Shown: positions 1 through 9,982 of the stretch, piece by piece | Position numbering within the stretch: the stretch's first letter is position 1 | Layout: the number at the start of each line of letters is the position of its first letter | Origin: Candidatus Adiutrix sp. | Lineage (GTDB): Bacteria; Desulfobacterota; Desulfarculia; Adiutricales; Adiutricaceae | NCBI GenBank assembly: GCA_031273445.1 | Contig: JAISRV010000163.1 | Span: forward strand, 1-10,766 | Reading direction: 5' to 3' | DNA: 10,766 bases | Notes under the pieces: model-generated | Seen by the model: the letters and a program-made list of their open reading frames with translations, nothing else | Database searches by the model: none | Told to the model about the DNA's origin: nothing | Program-made: the position numbers and the translations under genes

Positions 1-442
1 AAACATACTTGTCTATAGTCTCCACATACTGTTTGCCCATGGTCACCGGCTTCTTCTGCTTCAGAACGCGCACCAGGGCCGAATTGGGCTCGGTTTCAAA
101 GACGTTGCGGCCCAGCACCTTGCCCACGGGCGCCTCGAATATCTGGGCGTATACTTCGTTGGCGTAAAAAATTATGCCGTCGCCGGCGGCGGCGATGACC
201 CCTTCGCTGTACTGATCCATGATCGCGGACATCAACTCGTGGCCTCTTAAACGGACCACATTCAGCAGACGATCTTTCTTGATATCGCCCACTACCCGCC
301 GCCGCCCGTCCAGGATGGGCACAAGCGATCCAAAAGGTTCCAGGTCGTCCGGGTTGAGGTCATAGATGTCCTGGTCGATGGACAGGCCGGCGGCCGACAG
401 GGCCGGGACCAGGCGGCTTTTCATTATTTTTCCCAGTTTCAT
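1..442 (-). CDS. PAS-domain transcriptional regulator, probably sigma-54-dependent (N-terminal part)
   Basis: An uninterrupted minus-strand reading frame of 147 codons starts at the ATG at 442-440 and leaves the window at base 1. The protein begins MKLGKIMKSRLV. Residues about 1-65 form a basic, then acidic N-terminal segment, and residues about 68-130 look like a PAS sensor domain: EGVIAAAGDGIIFYANEVYA, then GKVLGRNVFE and NSALVRVLKQKKPV. This GRxVxE...NSxLxxVL pattern is common just upstream of the AAA+ domain in sigma-54 enhancer-binding regulators, but that domain and the DNA-binding end lie outside the window, so the class is inferred. A histidine kinase or other PAS protein is possible. 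A purine-rich AGAGAG lies about 8 bases before the ATG; Met7 is an alternative start with less support. It is transcribed divergently from the TRAP operon, whose upstream region carries a -24/-12 promoter candidate, so it is the likely activator of that operon, sensing its substrate or a breakdown product. Confidence 0.8.
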   Translation of the reverse strand, partial: MKLGKIMKSRLVPALSAAGLSIDQDIYDLNPDDLEPFGSLVPILDGRRRVVGDIKKDRLLNVVRLRGHELMSAIMDQYSEGVIAAAGDGIIFYANEVYAQIFEAPVGKVLGRNVFETEPNSALVRVLKQKKPVTMGKQYVETIDKYV

Positions 443-916: not shown

Positions 917-2038
917 ATGCGTACTCGTTTTCTGGCAACTCTTTCCGCCCTGGCCCTGGTTTTGACGCTGGCCGCCTGCGACGGCGGAGTGATGAACAAG
1001 CCTCAGAGCAGCGGCGCCGTCGCCGAAAAGCAAAGCTTTAACTGGCGGCTGGCCAGCGTCTGGGGCGACGGCACCTTTCAGTTTGAAGGCGACCGCCGTT
1101 TCGCCGAAACGGTCACTAAGCTGTCCGATGGCCGCCTGACCATCACCGCCTACGGCGCGGGCTCAATCGTTCCCACCACCGGGGTTTTCGACGCGGTCCG
1201 CAACGGCACGGTGGAATCCGGCGGCGACTGGCCTTCCTACTGGACGGGCTTTAACACCGCCTTTGACCTGCTGGGCTCCCAGGTGCTGGGTTTCAACAAC
1301 TATGATTATATGAACTGGATTTACGGGGCCGGCGGTCTGGCTTTCTACAAAGAGCTTTATGGCAAATACGGCATGGAATATTTTCCGGTGGCCATGAGCG
1401 GCATGGAATCGGGCATCCGTTCCACCAAAAGGATCGCCAAACTCGAGGATCTGGCCGGCATGAAAATCCGTTTCGCCGGGTTGATTCAGGGCGAACTGAT
1501 TCAGAAATTCGGAGTGACCCCGGTGTCCATGAGCCTGCCCGAAGCTTACGAAGGACTCCAGCGCGGGGTCATCGACGCCATGGAATTTTCCGCGCCGATC
1601 AATGACGAAGCGGCCAAGCTCCAGGAAGTGGCCAAATACTGGCTGGCTCCCGGCTGGCATCAGACCTGCTCCGTTTATGGAGTTATGATCAACCAGGACG
1701 CCTACAACAAGCTGGACGACGAATTGAAGCTGATCATTGAAAAGGCGGCCAAGGCTGTGGGTCTGGAAACCATGGCCGAATACGGCTGGGGCGATTCGGT
1801 TGGCACCAACAAAATGATCGACTACGGCGTGGAGGTCAACTGGCTCGGCGAGGAAGATCTGGACCGCCTTGAAGCGGCCAAAAACGAGGTTATGGTTAAG
1901 CTGTCCCGCGAGAATCCGGATTACGCCAAATTGGCCAAGGCCCAGATGCAGTATTTCAAAGATTACGACCGTTACCGCGCCTTCCTGGGCGACTGGAGTT
2001 TCGGCCGCACCCCCAAGGCCTACCCTGACCTGCCCTGA
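917..2038 (+). CDS. dctP: TRAP transporter substrate-binding lipoprotein DctP
   Basis: This is the extracytoplasmic solute receptor of a TRAP transporter, which captures an organic acid and delivers it to the DctQ/DctM membrane complex. At 373 residues it is slightly longer than usual because of its signal and linker. The N-terminus is a lipoprotein signal with a hydrophobic stretch (residues 5-20) and lipobox LAAC, so Cys21 would be acylated; Asp at +2 would favour retention in the inner membrane where that rule applies. The family signature is present: GMKIRFAG at 181-188 with Arg185, the residue that usually pairs with the substrate carboxylate, then the YEGLQRGVIDAMEF segment (211-224). 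PGWHQ and the acidic residue at 223 resemble the TakP-like subgroup that binds 2-oxo acids and related monocarboxylates, but substrate cannot be assigned. It heads the operon, and hairpins after its stop may raise its level relative to the permease. Confidence 0.93.
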   Translation: MRTRFLATLSALALVLTLAACDGGVMNKPQSSGAVAEKQSFNWRLASVWGDGTFQFEGDRRFAETVTKLSDGRLTITAYGAGSIVPTTGVFDAVRNGTVESGGDWPSYWTGFNTAFDLLGSQVLGFNNYDYMNWIYGAGGLAFYKELYGKYGMEYFPVAMSGMESGIRSTKRIAKLEDLAGMKIRFAGLIQGELIQKFGVTPVSMSLPEAYEGLQRGVIDAMEFSAPINDEAAKLQEVAKYWLAPGWHQTCSVYGVMINQDAYNKLDDELKLIIEKAAKAVGLETMAEYGWGDSVGTNKMIDYGVEVNWLGEEDLDRLEAAKNEVMVKLSRENPDYAKLAKAQMQYFKDYDRYRAFLGDWSFGRTPKAYPDLP

Positions 2039-2090: not shown

Positions 2091-2110
2091 CAACAACGCG
2101 GGGATTGTTG
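2091..2110 (+). repeat. Second intercistronic hairpin before dctQ
   Basis: CAACAA (2091-2096) and TTGTTG (2105-2110) form a perfect six-base stem with an eight-base loop, about 80 bases before the dctQ start. It is AT-rich and weaker than the 2042 hairpin and has no T-run. It may be a processing or stabilising element, or chance. Confidence 0.3.
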
Positions 2111-2188
2111 AAATTCTACCCGAAGGCCCGGACGCCGGCCTTACAATGGCGACGGCGAAGAATCCTCCGGGGCGCAGAGGCTCCTTTC

Positions 2189-2740
2189 ATGTCAACAATT
2201 TATAAAATAACCGCCGCCATTGACCAGATCAGCGACTTTCTCGGCAAAATCGCCATGTCTCTGGCCATGATCCTGTTGGGCGTGGTGGTCTTCGAAGTCA
2301 TCAGCCGCCGGTTCTTCAACGCCCCCACCGTCTGGACCTATGAACTGAGCTCAATGCTTTTTGGGGCCTTCATCATGTTCATCATGCCTTACGGCATGTT
2401 GCGCAAGGTCAACGTGTCGGTGGACCTGATCACCCGGAAATTTTCCCTCAAAACTCAACAAATAATCGACCTGGTCACTTACTTCATATTCTTCTTTCCT
2501 TTCATGCTGGTGCTGCTGTACGGCGGCTATAAGTTCGCCCTGTCCTCGTGGCAGGTGCAGGAGACCAGTTGGTCCAACTGGAAGCCGCCGCTGTATTACT
2601 TCAAAACGTGTATCCCGGCGGCGGCCTTTTTCACCCTGTTGCAGGGCGTTTCCGAATTTCTCAAGCGCCTGATGGTTCTGATGGGGCGCCCGGCCGTGCC
2701 CGGCGAAGAGGTTCCGACAGAGGAGGTCAACCATGGCTGA
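2189..2740 (+). CDS. dctQ: TRAP transporter small permease subunit DctQ
   Basis: This is the small four-helix membrane subunit that partners DctM in TRAP uptake. The chosen start, MSTIYKITAA, has AGAGG eight bases upstream and gives a 183-residue protein of normal length. The frame stays open upstream to a TTG at 2105, but that stretch is basic and unlike DctQ, so it is left out. Hydrophobic segments lie at about 21-38, 52-70, 96-115 and 138-155. Family features are RRFFNAPTVWTYELSSMLFG (40-59), NVSVDLI (75-81), where an HVxVDLI-like motif is usual, and the WKPPLYYFKTCIP stretch (131-143) before the last helix. The C-terminal tail is acidic. Its last eight bases overlap the start of dctM, which suggests translational coupling and a fixed DctQ:DctM ratio. 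Confidence 0.92.
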   Translation: MSTIYKITAAIDQISDFLGKIAMSLAMILLGVVVFEVISRRFFNAPTVWTYELSSMLFGAFIMFIMPYGMLRKVNVSVDLITRKFSLKTQQIIDLVTYFIFFFPFMLVLLYGGYKFALSSWQVQETSWSNWKPPLYYFKTCIPAAAFFTLLQGVSEFLKRLMVLMGRPAVPGEEVPTEEVNHG

Positions 2741-4052
2741 GTTCATTCTGCTGGCCATGTTCATCGCTCTGATTATCGGCATCGCCTCCAACCATCCCCT
2801 AGGCTTCGTACTGGGCGGAGTGGGCCTCATCGCCGGTCTGATCGGTTGGGGCGCCGCCTCCTTCAACATCATCGTCAATCAGACCTACGCGGTGATGAAC
2901 AACTATCTGCTGATCGCCATACCCATGTTCGTGCTGATGGCCAATTTTCTGATGTACAGCGGCGTGGCCGACGGCTTGTTCGAATCGGTCCGCCTGATTT
3001 TGGGCACCCTGCGAGGCGGCTTGGCTGTGGCCGTGGTTTTGGTGGCCACGGTTTTCGCGGCCACCACCGGCGTGGTCGGAGCTTCGGTGCTGACCATGGG
3101 CCTGTTAGCCATCCCTATCCTGGACCGCTATAAGTACGATCGGGGCCTGACCGCCGGGGTGGTCTGCGCCGGGGGGTCTTTGGGCATCCTGATTCCGCCG
3201 AGCATCATGCTGGTCTCCATGGCCTCTTTAGCCCAGATCTCGGTGGGCAAGCTCCTGCTGGCGGCCATCGTGCCCGGCCTGCTCCTGTCGCTGTGCTACA
3301 TAATCTACGTCATAGCGGCCTGTCGCCTCAAGCCGGAAAAAGGACCGGCCATGACCCGCGAGGAATTGGCCAAATATCCCATGAGTTTCCGGATCAAAGG
3401 CTGCCTGATCAACCTGGCGCCGCCGGTCATTTTGATCCTGGGCGTCCTGGGGACCATCTTCACCGGCACGGCCACCCCGACCGAAGCCTCGGCCTGCGGG
3501 GCCTTCCTGGCCCTGATTCTGACCTTTTTCTACCGCAAGTTCAGCCTCGGAATGGTTCGTGATTCTCTTTTGGATACGGCCAAGACTTCCTGCATGTGCT
3601 TTGTCATCATGATCGGGGCCAACAGCTTCTGCGCCATTTTCATGGGCCTCAACGGCTCCCAGACTGTGGCCGCCTTTGTCCATAATCTGGGGCTCAGCGG
3701 CGGCGCGGTTCTAATCGTCATGCTGATCTTGATTTTCGCCATGGGCTGCTTCATAGACTGGATCGGCATTGTGGCCATCTGCCTGCCCATCTTTCTGCCC
3801 ATCATGGACACTTACGGCTACGACCGCCTCTACGTCTGCGCCGTAGCCGCGGTGGTCATGCAGACCTGCTTCATGACCCCGCCCTTCGGCTACGCCTTGT
3901 TCTACATCAAGGGCATCATGCCCGGCGACTGGTCGATGCTGGACATTTATAAAGGCGTCATCCCCTTCCTGATCATCATCCTCTTTGTGACGGCCATGAC
4001 CCTGATTTTCCCTCAAGTCGTGCTGTATCTGCCGGGCCTGTCCAGTCTCTGA
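2733..4052 (+). CDS. dctM: TRAP transporter large permease subunit DctM
   Basis: This is the transport subunit, about twelve helices, that moves the substrate inward with sodium or protons. It has 439 residues, a full-length DctM of the IT superfamily. Recognisable motifs are TTGVVGAS (111-118), GGSLGILIPPSIMLV (147-161) in the first half, GTATPTEAS (245-253), and MTPPFGYALF (391-400) in the second half. These are the repeated loops that form the substrate and ion sites in this fold. GAGGAGGT lies within the end of dctQ, a few bases before the ATG, and fixes the start. It overlaps dctQ by eight bases and is followed after 32 bases by the alcohol dehydrogenase, so transport and catabolism share one message. 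Confidence 0.95.
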   Translation: MAEFILLAMFIALIIGIASNHPLGFVLGGVGLIAGLIGWGAASFNIIVNQTYAVMNNYLLIAIPMFVLMANFLMYSGVADGLFESVRLILGTLRGGLAVAVVLVATVFAATTGVVGASVLTMGLLAIPILDRYKYDRGLTAGVVCAGGSLGILIPPSIMLVSMASLAQISVGKLLLAAIVPGLLLSLCYIIYVIAACRLKPEKGPAMTREELAKYPMSFRIKGCLINLAPPVILILGVLGTIFTGTATPTEASACGAFLALILTFFYRKFSLGMVRDSLLDTAKTSCMCFVIMIGANSFCAIFMGLNGSQTVAAFVHNLGLSGGAVLIVMLILIFAMGCFIDWIGIVAICLPIFLPIMDTYGYDRLYVCAVAAVVMQTCFMTPPFGYALFYIKGIMPGDWSMLDIYKGVIPFLIIILFVTAMTLIFPQVVLYLPGLSSL

Positions 4053-4084: not shown

Positions 4085-5251
4085 ATGACCATAATCAAAC
4101 CCGTGCCCTTTAAAATCCCCTCGGCGGTCATCACCGGACTGGGTAGCGTTAAAGAAAATTTGCTTGATCAAGTCAAAGGTTTCGACGCCCGCCGGGTGCT
4201 GATCGTCAGCGATCAGGCGCTGATCAAGACCGGTTATGTGGACGAACTGAAAGGATTCCTCAAAGACGTCGAGACTGAAGTTTACGCCAACATCGAGCCC
4301 GAGCCATCCATTGAAAACATGGAAGAAACTCTGGCTTGGTGTTCCGGCAAAAAATTCGACGTCTTCATCGGTCTCGGCGGAGGCAGCGTCATCGACAGCG
4401 CCAAGATGCTGGCCGCTCTCCTGGCCCACGATGGGAAGGCGCGCGACTACGTAGGCGGCCCGAAAACTTTTGAGAAACTCGGCGCGCCCACCATCATGAT
4501 TCCCACCACCAGCGGCACCGGGGCCGAGGTCACGGTGAACGTGGTTTTCAAGGACAAGGCGGCCAAACTCAAAAGAGTGGCCGTGAGCCCTTATCTCATG
4601 CCCAACGTGGCCATCGTCGATCCCTTGTACACCATGACCGTGCCGCCGGCGGTCACCGCGGCCACGGGCATGGACGCCCTGACCCACGCCATTGAGGCCT
4701 ACACGGCCATGAAGGCCACCCCCTTGACCGACCTCTTCGCCGAGGACGCCATTGTCCGCATCGGCCGCTCCATCCGCACAGCGGTGACCGCCGGCGGCAA
4801 CGTCGAGGCTCGCCTGGACATGTCCCTCGGCTCCCTGTTCGGGGGCATCGCCAACGCCGGCGCCTCGGTGGGCGCGGTCCATGCTCTGTCTTACCCTCTC
4901 TGCGGCGAGTTCAACCTCTCCCACGGGGCGGGCAACGCCTTGATGCTGCCTTACGTGGCCGAACTCAACATGATGGGCAACATTAAAAAGTTCGCCCGCA
5001 TCGCCGCTCTGCTGGGCGAGGCGACCGAAGGCTATTCGGACCGAGACGCGGCCGAACTGGCCGTAAAGTCCATCAAGCGCCTGTCGCAGGATATCGGCAT
5101 TCCGCCGCGCATGAGCGAGTTCGGCATCACCGCCGAGGTTCTGCCGCGCTGGGCCAGGACGGTCATCGAAACCCAGACCCGGCTTTTGAGCAACAACCCC
5201 CGGCGCCTGACTGAAAAAGACGTGCTGGCCATTTACGAAGCCGCCTTGTAA
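4085..5251 (+). CDS. Iron-containing alcohol dehydrogenase (group III)
   Basis: This 388-residue protein belongs to the iron-dependent alcohol dehydrogenase family, cytoplasmic enzymes that interconvert an alcohol and an aldehyde or ketone with NAD(P)H. The N-terminal half has the nucleotide-binding GLGGGSVIDSAK (96-107) and PTTSGTGAE (140-148) motifs. All four expected metal ligands are visible: Asp197 and His201 in GMDALTHAIEAYT, His266 in GAVHALSYP and His280 in LSHGAGNA. The enzyme should therefore be active. AAGGAGA at 4073-4079 sits just before the ATG. It lies between the transporter and the CoA-transferase gene, and an acylating aldehyde dehydrogenase is three genes on, so the pair probably interconverts alcohol, aldehyde and acyl-CoA. 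Subfamilies include lactaldehyde reductase (FucO), sulfoacetaldehyde reductase (SarD), ethanol and 4-hydroxybutyrate dehydrogenases; the substrate cannot be fixed from sequence alone. Confidence 0.93.
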   Translation: MTIIKPVPFKIPSAVITGLGSVKENLLDQVKGFDARRVLIVSDQALIKTGYVDELKGFLKDVETEVYANIEPEPSIENMEETLAWCSGKKFDVFIGLGGGSVIDSAKMLAALLAHDGKARDYVGGPKTFEKLGAPTIMIPTTSGTGAEVTVNVVFKDKAAKLKRVAVSPYLMPNVAIVDPLYTMTVPPAVTAATGMDALTHAIEAYTAMKATPLTDLFAEDAIVRIGRSIRTAVTAGGNVEARLDMSLGSLFGGIANAGASVGAVHALSYPLCGEFNLSHGAGNALMLPYVAELNMMGNIKKFARIAALLGEATEGYSDRDAAELAVKSIKRLSQDIGIPPRMSEFGITAEVLPRWARTVIETQTRLLSNNPRRLTEKDVLAIYEAAL

Positions 5252-5274: not shown

Positions 5275-6774
5275 ATGCAAGCCATACCCAATAATCTGCG
5301 CCAGCACGAGACATCGGCAGCCGAAGCGGCCGCTCTAATCCAGAGCGGCCGAACTCTGGCCGTCGGCGGCTACACCTCCGCCGGCTACCCCAAGGCCGTT
5401 CCCCGGGAATTGGCCGCCAGAAAACGGGCCGGGGAGCCGCTGGCCGTCAATCTCCTCAGCGGTTCGCTGGTAGGGCAGATTGATGAACTGCTGGCTGACC
5501 TGACCATCCGCCGGACGCCCATGTTCGAAAGCCCGGCCATGCGGCGGGCGGTCAACGAGCGCCGCATGGTCTATGTCGAGCAGCAAATCGCCAAGTTGCC
5601 GCGCCTATTGCGGTCCGGAGCTTTGGGCGGCATTGACGTGGCCGTGGTCGAGGCCTTGGGTTTTACTGAAGAAGGGCGCCTGATCCCAACCTCGTCGGTG
5701 GGGCTGATGCCGCTGCTGCTGGAAATGGCCGACCGGATCATCGTCGAAATAAATTCGGCTCAGCCAGCCGGACTGGAAGGTCTGCATGACGTCTATCTGC
5801 CGGGCCGACCGCCGGAGCGGCGGCCCATTCCTCTGCTGCATCCAGCTCACCGTTTCGGCGAGCCCTTTGTCCGAGTTGATCATGACAAAATCCGGGCCAT
5901 CGTCCGCACCGACGAGCCGGATCAGGCTCCGGCGCCCGAGGCCCCTTCCGGGATAATGGTCCAGGTGACCGCCAACCTGCTCAACTTTCTGGAACTGGAA
6001 GCGGCCCGTCGCTGGCCGGGGGGACTGCCGCCCATCCAGAGCGGCGTGGGCAACTTGGCCTACGGCCTGGTTACCGCCCTGGGGCGATCGTCTTTCCGCG
6101 ACCTGAAATTTTTTTGCGGCACTCTCAATGAGGCCGGCATGGAACTGCTGCTTTCCGGCCAAGCCGTGGCCGCCTCCACCAGCGCGGTTCAGATGACGCC
6201 GAGGGTTACTGAAATACTTCGTAACCATGGTCACAGCCTGAGGAAATCCCTGGTCATCAGGAACCAGGAAATCACCAACGACGTCGAACCGGCCGCCCGC
6301 CTGGAGATTCTGGCCCTGAACACCGGCCTGGAAGCGGATATTTACGGCAACGTCAACACCAGTCACATCGCCGGCGCCCAGGTGGTCAACGGCATCGGCG
6401 GCGGAGCCAATTTCGCCCAGAACTCGGGCCTGTCAATTATGCTGCTGCCGTCCTGCGGCAAAGGCGGGGCCATCAGCACCATCGTCCCCATGACTCCCCA
6501 TGTGGACATCTGCGAGCACGATGTGGACGTGCTAATCACCGAGCAGGGCGTGGCCGACCTGCGGGGCAAGGACGACGTCGAACGCGCCGAAGCCATCATC
6601 GCCAACTGCGCCCATCCGGCCTACCGGGAACATTTGCGCCGCTATCTTGACCGGGCGGTGGCCTTGGTCGGCGGGCATCATCCCCAACTTCTCAACGAAG
6701 CCTTTGATTGGCATAGGCGGCTGAAGGAAACCGGCAGCATGGCCGAGTCAGGGATTTTCAGCTCCGGGGGGTGA
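5275..6774 (+). CDS. Acetyl-CoA hydrolase/CoA-transferase family protein with altered active site
   Basis: This 499-residue protein is a clear homologue of the Ach1/Cat1/YgfH (ScpC) CoA-transferases, which move CoA between acyl-CoA and a free acid. It has the N-terminal domain (GGYTSAGYPKAVP at 31-43; GGIDVAVVEA at 118-127), the mid-protein QSGVGN (255-260), and a C-terminal domain with DIYGNVNTSHIAG (355-367), STIVPMTPHVD (401-411), ITEQGVADLRG (421-431) and NCAHPAYR (444-451). The odd point is residues 277-294. YgfH-type enzymes recalled from family knowledge read W/Y-T/S-E-V-L-Q there, the Glu forming a CoA thioester. This protein aligns without gaps as FFCGTLNEAG, placing Gly282 at the Glu position. 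The later GGSGDF motif is also changed, to GGGANF (375-380). Citrate lyase alpha (CitF), which needs no such Glu, appears to have Gly at this place. It may transfer CoA without an enzyme thioester, have another chemistry, or be inactive. GGAG at 5265-5268 supports the start; the neighbouring gene is a CitE-type lyase. Confidence 0.88.
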   Translation: MQAIPNNLRQHETSAAEAAALIQSGRTLAVGGYTSAGYPKAVPRELAARKRAGEPLAVNLLSGSLVGQIDELLADLTIRRTPMFESPAMRRAVNERRMVYVEQQIAKLPRLLRSGALGGIDVAVVEALGFTEEGRLIPTSSVGLMPLLLEMADRIIVEINSAQPAGLEGLHDVYLPGRPPERRPIPLLHPAHRFGEPFVRVDHDKIRAIVRTDEPDQAPAPEAPSGIMVQVTANLLNFLELEAARRWPGGLPPIQSGVGNLAYGLVTALGRSSFRDLKFFCGTLNEAGMELLLSGQAVAASTSAVQMTPRVTEILRNHGHSLRKSLVIRNQEITNDVEPAARLEILALNTGLEADIYGNVNTSHIAGAQVVNGIGGGANFAQNSGLSIMLLPSCGKGGAISTIVPMTPHVDICEHDVDVLITEQGVADLRGKDDVERAEAIIANCAHPAYREHLRRYLDRAVALVGGHHPQLLNEAFDWHRRLKETGSMAESGIFSSGG

Positions 6775-6798: not shown

Positions 6799-7635
6799 AT
6801 GTTAGGAAGCGTTGCCATATTCGTGCCGGGCATTTCCGTGAAAAAAATGGGAAAAGCCATAACCCTGCCGGTCGACTCCATTTATTTCGACCTGGAGGAT
6901 TCCGTGGCCCCCGACCAGAAGGACGAGGCCCGCGACTGTTTGCGCAATTTTCTGGCGGCCCGCGATTTCGGCCAAAAATGTCTTCTGGCCCGGGTCAACT
7001 CGGTCGGCAGCCCCTGGTGGAACCAAGACGTCGCGGCCCTGGCCGGCTGCCGTAAGCTCTCCGCCCTATTGCTGCCCAACGCGGACCTGGCCTCGGTCAG
7101 CATCCTGACCGACCAATTGGAGCGTTTCGACTCCCACCTGAAAATCGTGCCTCTGATAGAAACCGCCCGAGGCCTGGAGGAAGCCCGGGAAGCTGTGCTG
7201 GTCTCCAGCCGGGTGTCCGGCCTCCAGTTCGGCGGCGAAGATTACACGGCCAGCCTGGGCATTCGCCGCACCCTGACCGGCGAGGAGATCGCCTACGCCC
7301 GCGTCCGACTGACCAACCTGGCCCGGGCCTACAACCTGGACATGATGGACACCCCCTTCACCGCCATCCAGGAGTTGGAACTGCTGGCCGCCGACTGCCG
7401 GCGGGCCGTGGACATGGGCTTTACCGGCAAGGCGGTCATCCATCCCGGCCATATTGAGATCGTCCGCCAGGCTTTTCGGCCGGACGAGGCGGATATAGAA
7501 AAAGCCCGCCGGCTCATCGCCGCTTATGAACAGCAGACTGGCGAGCGAGCTGGAGTTTTCGCCCTCGACGGCGCTATGATCGACGCCCCCATCATTCAAC
7601 GAGCCCGGAACACCCTGAAAAAGGCCGGACTATAA
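6799..7635 (+). CDS. CitE/HpcH-type acyl-CoA lyase (citramalyl-CoA or malyl-CoA lyase-like)
   Basis: This 278-residue protein belongs to the HpcH/HpaI aldolase family, CitE branch: magnesium-dependent TIM-barrel enzymes that cleave 3-hydroxyacyl thioesters such as citryl-, malyl- or citramalyl-CoA into acetyl-CoA and an oxoacid. Visible motifs are FVPG (8-11), DLEDSVAPDQKDEAR (31-45), ARVNS (64-68, with conserved Arg65), ETARGL (121-126, Glu121 a metal ligand), FGGEDYTASLG (144-154, Asp148 a metal ligand), GKAVIHPGH (210-218) and DGAMIDAPI (257-265), the C-terminal segment that donates an acidic residue across the dimer. All key residues seem intact. AGGAG lies a few bases before the ATG. The gene follows the CoA-transferase homologue by 24 bases, which suggests that enzyme makes its CoA-ester substrate. 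No citrate lyase ACP (CitD) or CitF gene is seen here, so free CoA esters are the likely substrate. Confidence 0.9.
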   Translation: MLGSVAIFVPGISVKKMGKAITLPVDSIYFDLEDSVAPDQKDEARDCLRNFLAARDFGQKCLLARVNSVGSPWWNQDVAALAGCRKLSALLLPNADLASVSILTDQLERFDSHLKIVPLIETARGLEEAREAVLVSSRVSGLQFGGEDYTASLGIRRTLTGEEIAYARVRLTNLARAYNLDMMDTPFTAIQELELLAADCRRAVDMGFTGKAVIHPGHIEIVRQAFRPDEADIEKARRLIAAYEQQTGERAGVFALDGAMIDAPIIQRARNTLKKAGL

Positions 7636-7679
7636 AATTGACGCCGCCGTAACGGCATTCAGTGAAAGGAATTTTTAAA

Positions 7680-9068
7680 ATGAGCGATTACAAAGATTAC
7701 GTCAGCGGCTTGATCAAGCGGGCCCGGGCGGCCCAGATTCAAATTGAGAATTATAACCAGGAGCAGGTCGACAAGCTCTGCCGGGCTGTGGCCCGCTCGG
7801 TGACCACTCCGGACCAGATCAAGGTCATCGGCGATATGGTCTATGCCGAGGCCGGCTACGGCGATCTGGAATCCAAGTTCTTCAAGCTGGAAACCAGAGT
7901 CAAGGGCGCCTTGTGGGACGTGCTGAAGATGAAGTCTGTGGGCGTTTTAGAGGAAATTCCGGAACGAGGCTTAGTGAAAATCGCCAAGCCCGTGGGCGTG
8001 GTGGCCGGTCTAGTGCCCAGCACCCAACCGGAAGTCACCCCGGTGATCAAGGCTCTCTTCGCCCTTAAAGCCAGGGACGCGATGGTCTTCGCCCCACACC
8101 CCAAGACCGAAAAATCCACGGCCTACGTCATCGACCGCATGCGCGGAGCCCTGAAGAAATACGGCGCGCCTGAAGATTTGCTGATCTGCGCTGAAAAGCC
8201 CACTGTGGACATGACCAATGAAATCATGCGCCAGGCCGACCTGGTGGTGGCCACCGGCGGAGCCCCCATGGTCCGGGCGGCTTATTCCTCCGGCACTCCG
8301 GCCTACGGCGCGGGCGCGGGCAACGCCAACGTGGTGGTGGACGAGACGGCCGATATCGAGGCCACGGCCAAGCTGTTGATCAACAGCAAATACTTTGACC
8401 AGTCCAGCGGCTGTTCCTGCGAAAACGCGGCCGTGATTCACTCCAGCGTCTATGACTCTTTGATCAGCCATATGAAAGCCAATGGCGCCTATGTTCTCAA
8501 CGCCGACGAAAAAGAGAAACTGCAAAAAGCCCTGTGGCCCAATTGGCCCAAAGACCACGCCCTCGGCCGGGACATCATCCTCCAGCGGGCTTCGGTCATC
8601 GCCGAGCGGTCTGGCTTCAGCGTGCCGCCTGAAACCAAACTCCTGTTGGCGGAAGAAACCGGCAGCGGCCCGGACTACCCCTTCTCTGGCGAGAAACTGA
8701 GCGTGGTGCTGACCATGTACCGTTACGACGACTTTGACCAGGCCATAAAAATCATCAAAGCCAATCAGGAGTATCAGGGTCTGGGACATTCCTGCGGCAT
8801 CCATTCCTTCGACGACGAAAAAATCATGCGCTATGCCATGACCATGAAGAGCACCCGCGTGGCCGTCCGCCAAGCCATGACCGCCTCCAACAGCGGCAGT
8901 TGGACCAGCGGCAACCACTGGACCTCCACTCTGGGCTGCGGCACCTGGGGCAAGACCATCGTGGCCGAGAACATTACGGTAAAACATTTCATGAACTTCA
9001 CCTGGGTGGCCCGGCCCATCAAACCTTATATCCCCACCGAAGAAGAACTTTTCGCCGGGCTTGATTGA
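7680..9068 (+). CDS. CoA-acylating aldehyde dehydrogenase
   Basis: This is an ALDH-superfamily enzyme of the CoA-acylating type (EutE, AdhE N-half, SauS), interconverting aldehyde plus CoA with acyl-CoA through NAD(P). It has 462 residues from the ATG at 7680, preceded by AAAGGA nine bases upstream. A GTG at 7662 extends the frame by six residues but lacks support. PVGVVAGLVPSTQP (104-117) and the VVATGGAPMV region (189-198) form the cofactor site. The catalytic Cys is Cys245 in FDQSSGCSCEN, aligning with the FDNGTSCSSEN type of sulfoacetaldehyde and acetaldehyde enzymes; an extra Cys247 is unusual. The C-terminal LGCGTWGK keeps the acylating-enzyme GCGTWG core but lacks the usual GN after it. 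The usual SauS-like, acetaldehyde or succinate-semialdehyde substrates cannot be told apart by eye. It is the last gene before the terminator and pairs logically with the iron alcohol dehydrogenase. Confidence 0.92.
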   Translation: MSDYKDYVSGLIKRARAAQIQIENYNQEQVDKLCRAVARSVTTPDQIKVIGDMVYAEAGYGDLESKFFKLETRVKGALWDVLKMKSVGVLEEIPERGLVKIAKPVGVVAGLVPSTQPEVTPVIKALFALKARDAMVFAPHPKTEKSTAYVIDRMRGALKKYGAPEDLLICAEKPTVDMTNEIMRQADLVVATGGAPMVRAAYSSGTPAYGAGAGNANVVVDETADIEATAKLLINSKYFDQSSGCSCENAAVIHSSVYDSLISHMKANGAYVLNADEKEKLQKALWPNWPKDHALGRDIILQRASVIAERSGFSVPPETKLLLAEETGSGPDYPFSGEKLSVVLTMYRYDDFDQAIKIIKANQEYQGLGHSCGIHSFDDEKIMRYAMTMKSTRVAVRQAMTASNSGSWTSGNHWTSTLGCGTWGKTIVAENITVKHFMNFTWVARPIKPYIPTEEELFAGLD

Positions 9069-9232: not shown

Positions 9233-9982
9233 ATGATGTTTCTGGAACTTTTTGGCGCGGCTGAAAATATCGTGGTCATCGGCGGAGGGGGCAAAACTTC
9301 TCTCGTTGGCCGCCTGGAAGAGGAATGCCGTCATTGCGGTCGGCCGGCGCTTGTCGCCGTCACTACCCATTTGGGCCGCAGTCAGTTGGCGCGGCTGGCC
9401 AGACTGCAGGCAGGCAGTCAGGAAGAAGCCCTGACGGCGGCTAGCCGGGCGGCTGGAGGCGAAAGGCTGCTCCTGGCCGGCCCAAGGGACGAATCCGCGC
9501 CTGGCAAGCTCGGCGGCGTGCCTGTGGCCTGGTTTCCGGCGCTGCGTCGGGCGGCCCCGGCCGATATGCTGTTCATTATTGAGGCGGACGGCTCAAGGGG
9601 CCTCCCGCTCAAAGCGCATCGCCCGGATGAGCCGCCTTTGCCGCTTTTGGACAATATGTTCCTGGCTGCCGTCATCGGCCTTGAACTGTTGCGCCGGCCC
9701 CTGTTGGAGGCCGTGCATCGCCCGGAAATTTTAAAAACCGTTCTGGGCGAAGATATTGACGACCAGACCACGCTTTCCCCGGCTCAGGCGGCGGCCTTCG
9801 TTCGTTCCGCCTGGGCGCGGCTCCCGATTGACCTCATTTTTCTCAATCAGGCCGATATCCTGGCCGAGTCTGACAGTCTCAGGCGCCGAGGCCGCGAACT
9901 GGCGGTTTTTTTGGCCGCCCACGCCCGCCGGACGGCCTGGGGCAGCTTAAACGAAGGGTGGTTCAGGGAAATAAGCCTATGA
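9233..9982 (+). CDS. yqeC: YqeC-family NTP-binding protein, selenium-dependent molybdenum hydroxylase accessory
   Basis: This 249-residue protein matches the YqeC family, predicted cytoplasmic nucleotide-binding accessory proteins that co-occur with selenium-dependent molybdenum hydroxylases; their exact reaction is not established. Motifs are a P-loop GGGGKTS (17-23) close to the N-terminus, TTHLG (44-48), the family-typical EADGSRGLPLKAHRPDEP (117-134), VHRPEI (161-166) and NQAD (205-208), a variant of an NKxD base-recognition motif. The P-loop needs a start near 9233, where two ATGs stand in tandem (9233 and 9236), yet there is no ribosome binding site; TATAAT is only seven bases away, so the message may be leaderless. 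No hydroxylase, yqeB or molybdopterin cytidylyltransferase gene is in the window, so it stands apart from its usual partners. Its stop overlaps the next gene as ATGA. Confidence 0.88.
   Translation: MMFLELFGAAENIVVIGGGGKTSLVGRLEEECRHCGRPALVAVTTHLGRSQLARLARLQAGSQEEALTAASRAAGGERLLLAGPRDESAPGKLGGVPVAWFPALRRAAPADMLFIIEADGSRGLPLKAHRPDEPPLPLLDNMFLAAVIGLELLRRPLLEAVHRPEILKTVLGEDIDDQTTLSPAQAAAFVRSAWARLPIDLIFLNQADILAESDSLRRRGRELAVFLAAHARRTAWGSLNEGWFREISL

Follow-up and report, generated by a model that had tools for sequence, protein, structure and literature searches.

In textbook accounts, class I coenzyme A (CoA) transferases are defined by a glutamyl-CoA thioester, and a homologue that lacks the catalytic glutamate raises the question of whether, and how, it could still move CoA. 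Such a homologue, referred to here as the Gly enzyme, is encoded in a 10,766-nucleotide stretch of DNA from Candidatus Adiutrix sp. (Desulfobacterota; Desulfarculia; GenBank contig JAISRV010000163.1). This stretch, the window, is a 10.8-kb contig (C24) of a 2.8-Mb draft genome that is ~72% complete. We propose that the Gly enzyme is a working CoA-transferase that forms no enzyme-bound glutamyl-CoA and would instead shift CoA within one molecule, between two carboxylates, a reading to which we assign a probability of about 0.4. Its core, a non-covalent mechanism that relies on a carboxylate of the substrate, is shared with the main rival, a transfer like that of the citrate lyase alpha subunit CitF, and is probable.

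Scores and predicted model alike assign the protein to the AarC/YgfH type of class I CoA-transferases and not to CitF. The Pfam domains AcetylCoA_hydro and AcetylCoA_hyd_C matched above their cut-offs (56 and 120.3 bits), and TIGR03458, the YgfH subfamily model, gave 501.5 bits, under its cut-off of 658.7. The CitF models gave 20 bits (Pfam; cut-off, 27) and 18 bits (TIGR01584; cut-off, 501.45), both under cut-off. In a phmmer comparison with PDB sequences the best matches, ungapped around the active site, were PA5445 (2g39, 4.2e-111) and AarC (4eu9, 6.2e-102). Identity was 36 to 40% to AarC and PA5445 and 39 to 44% to 12 aligned Glu-type members of the same taxonomic class. An AlphaFold model built from 14 aligned sequences (mean predicted local distance difference test score [pLDDT], 69.2; predicted template modeling score, 0.71) was compared with known folds by scores only; the AarC E294A chain ranked first (E value, 2.2e-43; template modeling score, 0.84), followed by RipA and other 4-hydroxybutyrate-type enzymes, with CitF after these. 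A closer kinship with CitF was rejected on these grounds, the YgfH score of 501.5 bits standing against 20 bits for CitF and the model being nearest to AarC. Elsewhere in the ~72% complete genome, class I searches matched just one further gene, which is of the 4-hydroxybutyrate type and lies on a different contig. It has Glu at the presumed site, within GIHTEMFSDG, which we take to be the 4-hydroxybutyrate-type active-site motif.

An earlier note, made from the letters of this DNA, had proposed that the catalytic Glu is lost and replaced by Gly282. The alignment with PDB sequences bears this out without gaps, and Glu occupies the column in 64 of 82 aligned AarC-type rows and in every one of the 14 further proteins from the taxonomic class that matched at 1e-50. 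The alignment also agrees with the note that GGSGDF has become GGGANF. An orthologue 80% identical to the Gly enzyme was found in another genus of the same family (genome G012), where the same seven genes stand in identical order and the protein carries the same FFCGTLNEAG and GGGANF. Both Gly proteins have lost the nucleophile and retained the residues mapped to AarC Gln267, Val270, Asn347, Gly388, and Glu435. In addition, AarC Ser389 is replaced by Gly377 and Arg394 by Gln382; position 228 was left out of the comparison because the AarC chain is an R228E mutant.

The orthologue also bears on whether the Gly codon could be an artefact of sequencing or assembly, or the gene a pseudogene. The window is a draft assembly, and the run of seven T at 6109-6115, just before the codon, is real; the earlier note had named compensating indels around it as a possible refutation. 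However, G012 reads ACA TTT TTC TGC GGC at the site, with the same Gly codon and frame and no seven-T run, which makes a compensating indel very unlikely; frame errors would be needed in both assemblies. The ratio of nonsynonymous to synonymous substitution rates (dN/dS, Nei-Gojobori method) was 0.130 for the Gly enzyme gene, 0.126 for the adjacent CitE-like gene, and 0.040 to 0.077 for the other five operon genes, values that are rough because dS was 0.95 to 2.15. The Gly enzyme gene has an open frame and is under purifying selection, and the replacement is neither error nor decay. The earlier judgment that simple decay is unlikely is thereby strengthened, and the chance of an artefact or pseudogene is negligible. 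Selenocysteine in the G012 match was also considered and rejected, the lone TGA being the stop at the C-terminus.

A changed mechanism in the Gly enzyme is plausible, given the residues lost and kept. In the AarC study, roles are described for Glu294, Asn347, Gly388, and the 270s loop, and E294A is called an inactive mutant (PMC4876117). Thus, a transferase without this Glu needs another nucleophile, and because the Glu is absent and the oxyanion holes are retained, a second carboxylate on the substrate would be the simplest one. The free carboxylate of the substrate would attack the thioester carbonyl in place of the missing Glu and the CoA thiolate would leave. The original oxyanion holes (Gly376 and Asn335) would host the resulting anhydride, probably a cyclic one, before CoA re-attacks the other carbonyl. 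With a succinate-type acid, closure to a five-membered cyclic anhydride should be easy. The most likely substrate may be a short hydroxy-dicarboxylic acid, with CoA shifted between its two carboxylates as proposed for ThnP. ThnP, which acts in anaerobic naphthalene degradation in culture N47, belongs to the Cat1 subgroup of class I and has Gly238 at the Glu position; it is reported to move CoA within one molecule, with neither acetyl-CoA nor succinyl-CoA serving as donor (PMC11659651).

We infer the activity of the Gly enzyme, its direction, its intramolecular course, and its substrate from this site and from the operon, a run of seven genes on the plus strand that encode DctP, DctQ, DctM, an iron-containing alcohol dehydrogenase, the Gly enzyme, a CitE-like lyase, and an acylating aldehyde dehydrogenase. 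The operon offers a reason for an internal shift, because the aldehyde dehydrogenase would load the new carboxyl whereas the CitE-like lyase needs a hydroxyl beta to the thioester. The pathway would start with uptake of a hydroxy acid by the tripartite ATP-independent periplasmic (TRAP) transporter and oxidation of an alcohol by the iron-containing dehydrogenase. The acylating aldehyde dehydrogenase would put the thioester on the new carboxyl, the Gly enzyme would shift CoA to the other carboxyl, leaving the hydroxyl beta to the thioester, and the CitE-like lyase would cleave the product, releasing a 2-oxo acid together with acetyl-CoA (or propionyl-CoA). For example, 3,4-dihydroxybutanoate (or a methyl homologue) could be converted via 1-malyl-CoA and 4-malyl-CoA to acetyl-CoA and glyoxylate. 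The CitE-like protein shares Arg65, Glu121, Asp148, and Asp262, presumably its catalytic residues, with E. coli CitE. Also consistent with intramolecular transfer is that an acylating dehydrogenase can make a thioester without ATP, and that the two nearest named relatives of this one act on aldehydes bearing a sulfonate or a carboxylate (SauS, for sulfoacetaldehyde, gave 473.7 bits against a cut-off of 600). No sulfonate lyase was seen in the window, where no dedicated search for one was made, and the SauS match is under cut-off. A further point in favor is that several of the five mapped residues, retained in the Gly pair, change as well in most of the Ala/Pro relatives described below.

Several observations weigh against an intramolecular shift in this pathway. 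The claim that the protein keeps its conserved blocks held only in part: the five mapped residues are retained, but Asn229 and Phe232 of the AarC 230s loop have become Ala218 and Pro221, and the two Gly proteins both depart from the Glu-type rows at 28 positions where at least 90% of those 64 rows agree (S31G, F33Y, D102E, H104Q, F221P, N263Y, and R382Q are examples). The site has thus been remodeled and has not merely lost its Glu. The predicted model is moderate, with residues 362-379 at pLDDT <50, and supports the fold rather than the geometry of the site. Models of acetaldehyde-type acylating dehydrogenases follow close behind SauS (383.7 and 336.5 bits; 5j78), and an anionic aldehyde is therefore no requirement. 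The substrate 3,4-dihydroxybutanoate is our own proposal and serves as an example only, and the Gly group consists of two sequences from one bacterial family. For ThnP, the internal anhydride is itself a proposal of its authors, who give Glu269 as an alternative (PMC11659651), and the mesaconyl-C1-C4 CoA transferase Mct acts intramolecularly yet has an Asp, so an enzyme can shift CoA within one molecule without having given up its nucleophile.

The main rival to intramolecular transfer, somewhat unlikely in our estimate, is a CitF-like intermolecular transfer on free CoA, in a citrate- or citramalate-lyase cycle without an acyl-carrier protein (ACP). Acetyl-CoA and a hydroxy-dicarboxylate (e.g., citramalate) would be bound together and react through a mixed acetyl-carboxylate anhydride to the hydroxyacyl-CoA, which the CitE-like lyase would split, regenerating acetyl-CoA. 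Support for the earlier suggestion that CitF has Gly at the aligned position is fair, not strong. Local HHalign runs with E. coli CitF alone and with the E. coli and G012 CitF together (probability, 82 and 90%) placed Gly282 on the first Gly of CitF ALGGIT, ungapped through MELLLSG, with a moderate match overall and low local confidence, and a global alignment run with CitF gave no usable alignment. Both Gly proteins adjoin a CitE-like lyase, a neighbor that a CitF-like cycle explains as well as the intramolecular shift does, and the CitE-like protein scored about equally with the RipC (158 bits; cut-off, 375) and CitE (155 bits; cut-off, 443) models, under both cut-offs. CoA esters can also serve family II enzymes as substrates in vitro (PMC9813914). 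Furthermore, G012 has a separate, ordinary citDEFCXG operon (L117, G012:C119; CitD, E, F, C, X, and G matches), next to which the Gly operon would be a second, different module. However, a CitF-like cycle gives the acylating aldehyde and alcohol dehydrogenases no evident role beyond reducing acetyl-CoA, and CitF is only a distant relative. Judged by the size and names of its reading frames, the operon has no ACP gene, so a citrate-lyase mechanism in the literal sense would not apply. CitD (PF06857) was not found in the ~72% complete genome of the window, and in G012 it was found only within the separate cit operon.

It is improbable that the protein is no longer a transferase but a hydrolase, a subunit that binds CoA esters or regulates, or a non-catalytic partner. 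The inactivity of AarC E294A would fit such a loss of function, as would the tandem arrangement of Leu/Val relatives with Glu-type copies, a hint at possible non-catalytic partner subunits in the family. The Gly operon, in contrast, contains no Glu-type partner, the only other class I match being on another contig, and the oxyanion-hole residues are kept under strong purifying selection. The prospect that another residue, such as Cys281, Glu286, or Glu423, has become the nucleophile is fainter still. Cys281 is kept in both Gly proteins, and the ThnP authors also consider a second Glu (PMC11659651). Nevertheless, Cys281 is one residue off, at the Ser/Thr position of the YSE, YTE, and WTE motifs, and Glu423 corresponds to AarC Glu435, which coexists with Glu294 in AarC. 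The Glu286 column, raised in the earlier note as a possible site of the thioester, holds Asp in 63 of the 64 Glu-type rows; this is the ordinary Asp/Glu of the family, and on sequence Glu286 was therefore rejected as a displaced nucleophile.

Loss of the Glu extends beyond the Gly pair. In the taxonomic class, 16 of 63 genomes had an AarC-type match at 1e-50, 2 with Gly and 14 with Glu; only 2 of 63 thus carry Gly, which makes it a rare form. In a sample of the phylum, 52 of 395 genomes matched at 1e-60 in searches that scored at most three AarC-type candidates per genome and may miss paralogues. The class and phylum loci were aligned with E. coli ScpC and one Azospirillum protein, giving 82 rows; 4 repeat a gene already present, which leaves 78 distinct. 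Among the 78 distinct AarC-type proteins, column 282 is Glu in 63, Ala in 7, Leu in 4, Gly in 2, Val in 1, and Pro in 1. That 15 of 78 proteins, from at least two lineages, lack Glu weakens the uniqueness of the Gly enzyme yet shows a recurring theme, and it makes annotation of the family as 'succinate CoA transferase' or 'acetyl-CoA hydrolase' unsafe. In a quick tree built with the motif columns left out, the Gly pair has a long stem (1.45 changes per column). A single origin of all Glu-less rows was rejected by the approximately unbiased (AU) test (p ~1e-56), and a clade uniting the Gly pair and the Ala/Pro proteins was not (p 0.38); long branches make the placement of the Glu-less rows unsure. 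A search of plasmids gave 106 records, all under 60% identity, and the one plasmid active site examined (Azospirillum, L024) has Glu. A scan of named genomes with two narrow N-terminal peptide patterns returned only the G012 contig, a weak negative.

The five Leu/Val proteins retain the oxyanion-hole residues; Val258 is Ile or Thr in two of them, and Glu423 is Asp in some, likewise in their Glu-type partners. Each of their genes adjoins a second AarC-type copy. Glu was seen in the partner in four of the five cases; the adjacent partner in the fifth (L112) is truncated where the contig stops. Possibly these tandem pairs form heteromers with a non-catalytic subunit. Upstream of two pairs (L108 and L109) is a gene whose product combines a LUD domain with cysteine-rich (CCG) domains. 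In the eight Ala/Pro proteins other site residues are altered too, Gln255 to Glu or Ala in seven and Asn335 to Asp, His, or Ala in four. Their contexts are unrelated: branched-chain-type ATP-binding cassette (ABC) transporter genes at L100 and L101, with a flavin oxidoreductase at L100 and MmgE/PrpD at L101, a family III CoA-transferase at L102, and a hydantoinase-like pair with a TRAP gene at L103.

The earlier note had raised the question of whether homologues with Gly form a clade always next to a CitE-like gene. For the Gly members, a very small group, both genes directly precede such a gene, but a CitE link was not borne out for the 13 other distinct Glu-less proteins (Ala, Leu, Val, and Pro). 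Queries with the CitE-like protein of the window or E. coli CitE (1e-5) gave no match in 15 fetched stretches, of which 13 contain a Glu-less gene and the other 2 contain Glu-type genes alone. This absence is local, because several of the stretches are short or are broken off by the end of a contig. One genome with two Glu-less genes (G276) has a CitE-like gene on another contig. The 14 Glu-type class loci, with 1.5 kb of flank each, gave no match to the CitE-like gene or to the aldehyde or alcohol dehydrogenase. The broader interpretation, in which AarC-type enzymes lost the Glu repeatedly and the Gly pair came to use a substrate carboxylate for a new CoA-isomerizing step between dehydrogenase and lyase in an undescribed hydroxy-acid pathway, is tentative.

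The remaining features of the window and the related loci are listed in Table 1. The truncated regulator at the window edge scored 25.9 bits with the PrdR model, far under cut-off; the longer frame of the G012 regulator looks, by eye, like a sigma-54 activator. Sigma-54 promoter searches gave no more sites than chance would, with 5 in the window against 5.6 expected and 10 against 7.4 in stretch L006, where the sole exact match (8460-8475) lies inside the CitE-like gene. No hydratase gene is present in the window. YqeC, a selenium-cofactor biosynthesis protein, is encoded downstream of the operon at 9233-9982. In genome G421 (L124:7278-10630), a citrate-synthase-domain gene (citryl-CoA-lyase-like, under cut-off), a related aldehyde dehydrogenase gene (38%), and a CitE-like gene are adjacent to one another, near an aminotransferase and a phosphonatase-like gene; an AarC-type CoA-transferase had no match at this locus. 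At L126:9286-18407, an aldehyde dehydrogenase related to that of the window (42%) has genes for a (2S)-3-sulfopropanediol dehydratase and for a sigma-54 regulator in its neighborhood.

Table 1. Positions of the genes, active-site residues, and related loci (window coordinates unless a locus is named)
Feature	Position	Strand	Remark
PAS-containing regulator, start	2..442	-	divergent, cut by window end; PAS over cut-off
DctP, TRAP transporter solute-binding protein	917..2038	+	
DctQ, TRAP small permease	2105..2740	+	
DctM, TRAP large permease	2733..4052	+	
Iron-containing alcohol dehydrogenase	4085..5251	+	
Gly enzyme, AarC/YgfH-type class I CoA-transferase homologue	5275..6774	+	499 aa, without catalytic Glu
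Q255-S-G-V258	6037..6048	+	AarC Gln267 and Val270 (270s loop), kept
Gly282	6118..6120	+	codon GGC, aligned without gaps to nucleophile AarC Glu294
Asn335	6277..6279	+	AarC Asn347, internal oxyanion hole, kept
GGGANF (375-380)	6397..6414	+	replaces GGSGDF; Gly376 = AarC Gly388, external oxyanion hole, kept
Glu423	6541..6543	+	AarC Glu435, kept
CitE-like C-C lyase, HpcH/HpaI family	6799..7635	+	278 aa
CoA-acylating aldehyde dehydrogenase	7662..9068	+	nearest SauS and solved acylating succinate-semialdehyde dehydrogenase (8cei)
Tandem pairs with Leu/Val protein	L108:7952-11072, L109:7673-10871, L110:7828-10836, L111:2123-5097, L112:3-2056		five genomes of the same phylum
Ala/Pro-type relatives	L100:8800-10293, L101:8799-10277, L102:8597-10102, L103:4093-5601, L104, L105, L106, L107		

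With AarC, YgfH (ScpC), and PA5445, class I enzymes (Cat1), the Gly enzyme shares the fold, the Pfam domains, and the oxyanion-hole residues, and it differs from them in the change of Glu to Gly and of GGSGDF to GGGANF. The itaconate module RipA-RipB-RipC likewise includes a CoA-transferase and a CitE-like lyase, and the RipC model is among the matches of the window lyase. RipA differs in being of the shorter type and presumably keeps its catalytic Glu (Glu249 mutants are among PDB titles), and the window lacks the hydratase gene. Class II (family II) CoA-transferases in general have no catalytic acid. CitF resembles the Gly enzyme in the absence of an acidic nucleophile, the aligned Gly, and the CitE-like neighbor; the differences are the score under cut-off, a fold closer to AarC, and an operon without an ACP gene. 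MdcA, of family II, has no acidic site residue, and the malonate carboxylate is proposed to attack acetyl-MdcC directly (PMC5534430). In the 3-hydroxypropionate bicycle, Mct performs an intramolecular C1-C4 CoA shift that is followed by hydration and then by citramalyl-CoA lyase (PMC9813914). Moving CoA within a C5 dicarboxylate before lyase cleavage is the likeness to the pathway proposed here; the difference is that Mct belongs to family III and keeps its nucleophile, Asp165.

The closest functional precedent for the Gly enzyme, by analogy, is ThnP, the only report of a Glu-less class I enzyme noticed in searches of open-licence literature. Both are class I enzymes with a reported loss of the nucleophile and Gly at the Glu position, and ThnP differs in working with an acyl-CoA dehydrogenase. 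By residue number (Gly238 against Glu238 of 3GK7), ThnP seems to be of the shorter 4-hydroxybutyrate type rather than the AarC type, and its loss of Glu would therefore be apparently independent. A natural Glu-less member that keeps both oxyanion-hole residues allows the ability of the AarC scaffold to work on a substrate carboxylate to be tested cleanly. If the proposed mechanism is true, a single step would join those of class I and class II (CitF and MdcA), and the Gly enzyme would be a second case after ThnP, apparently of separate origin.

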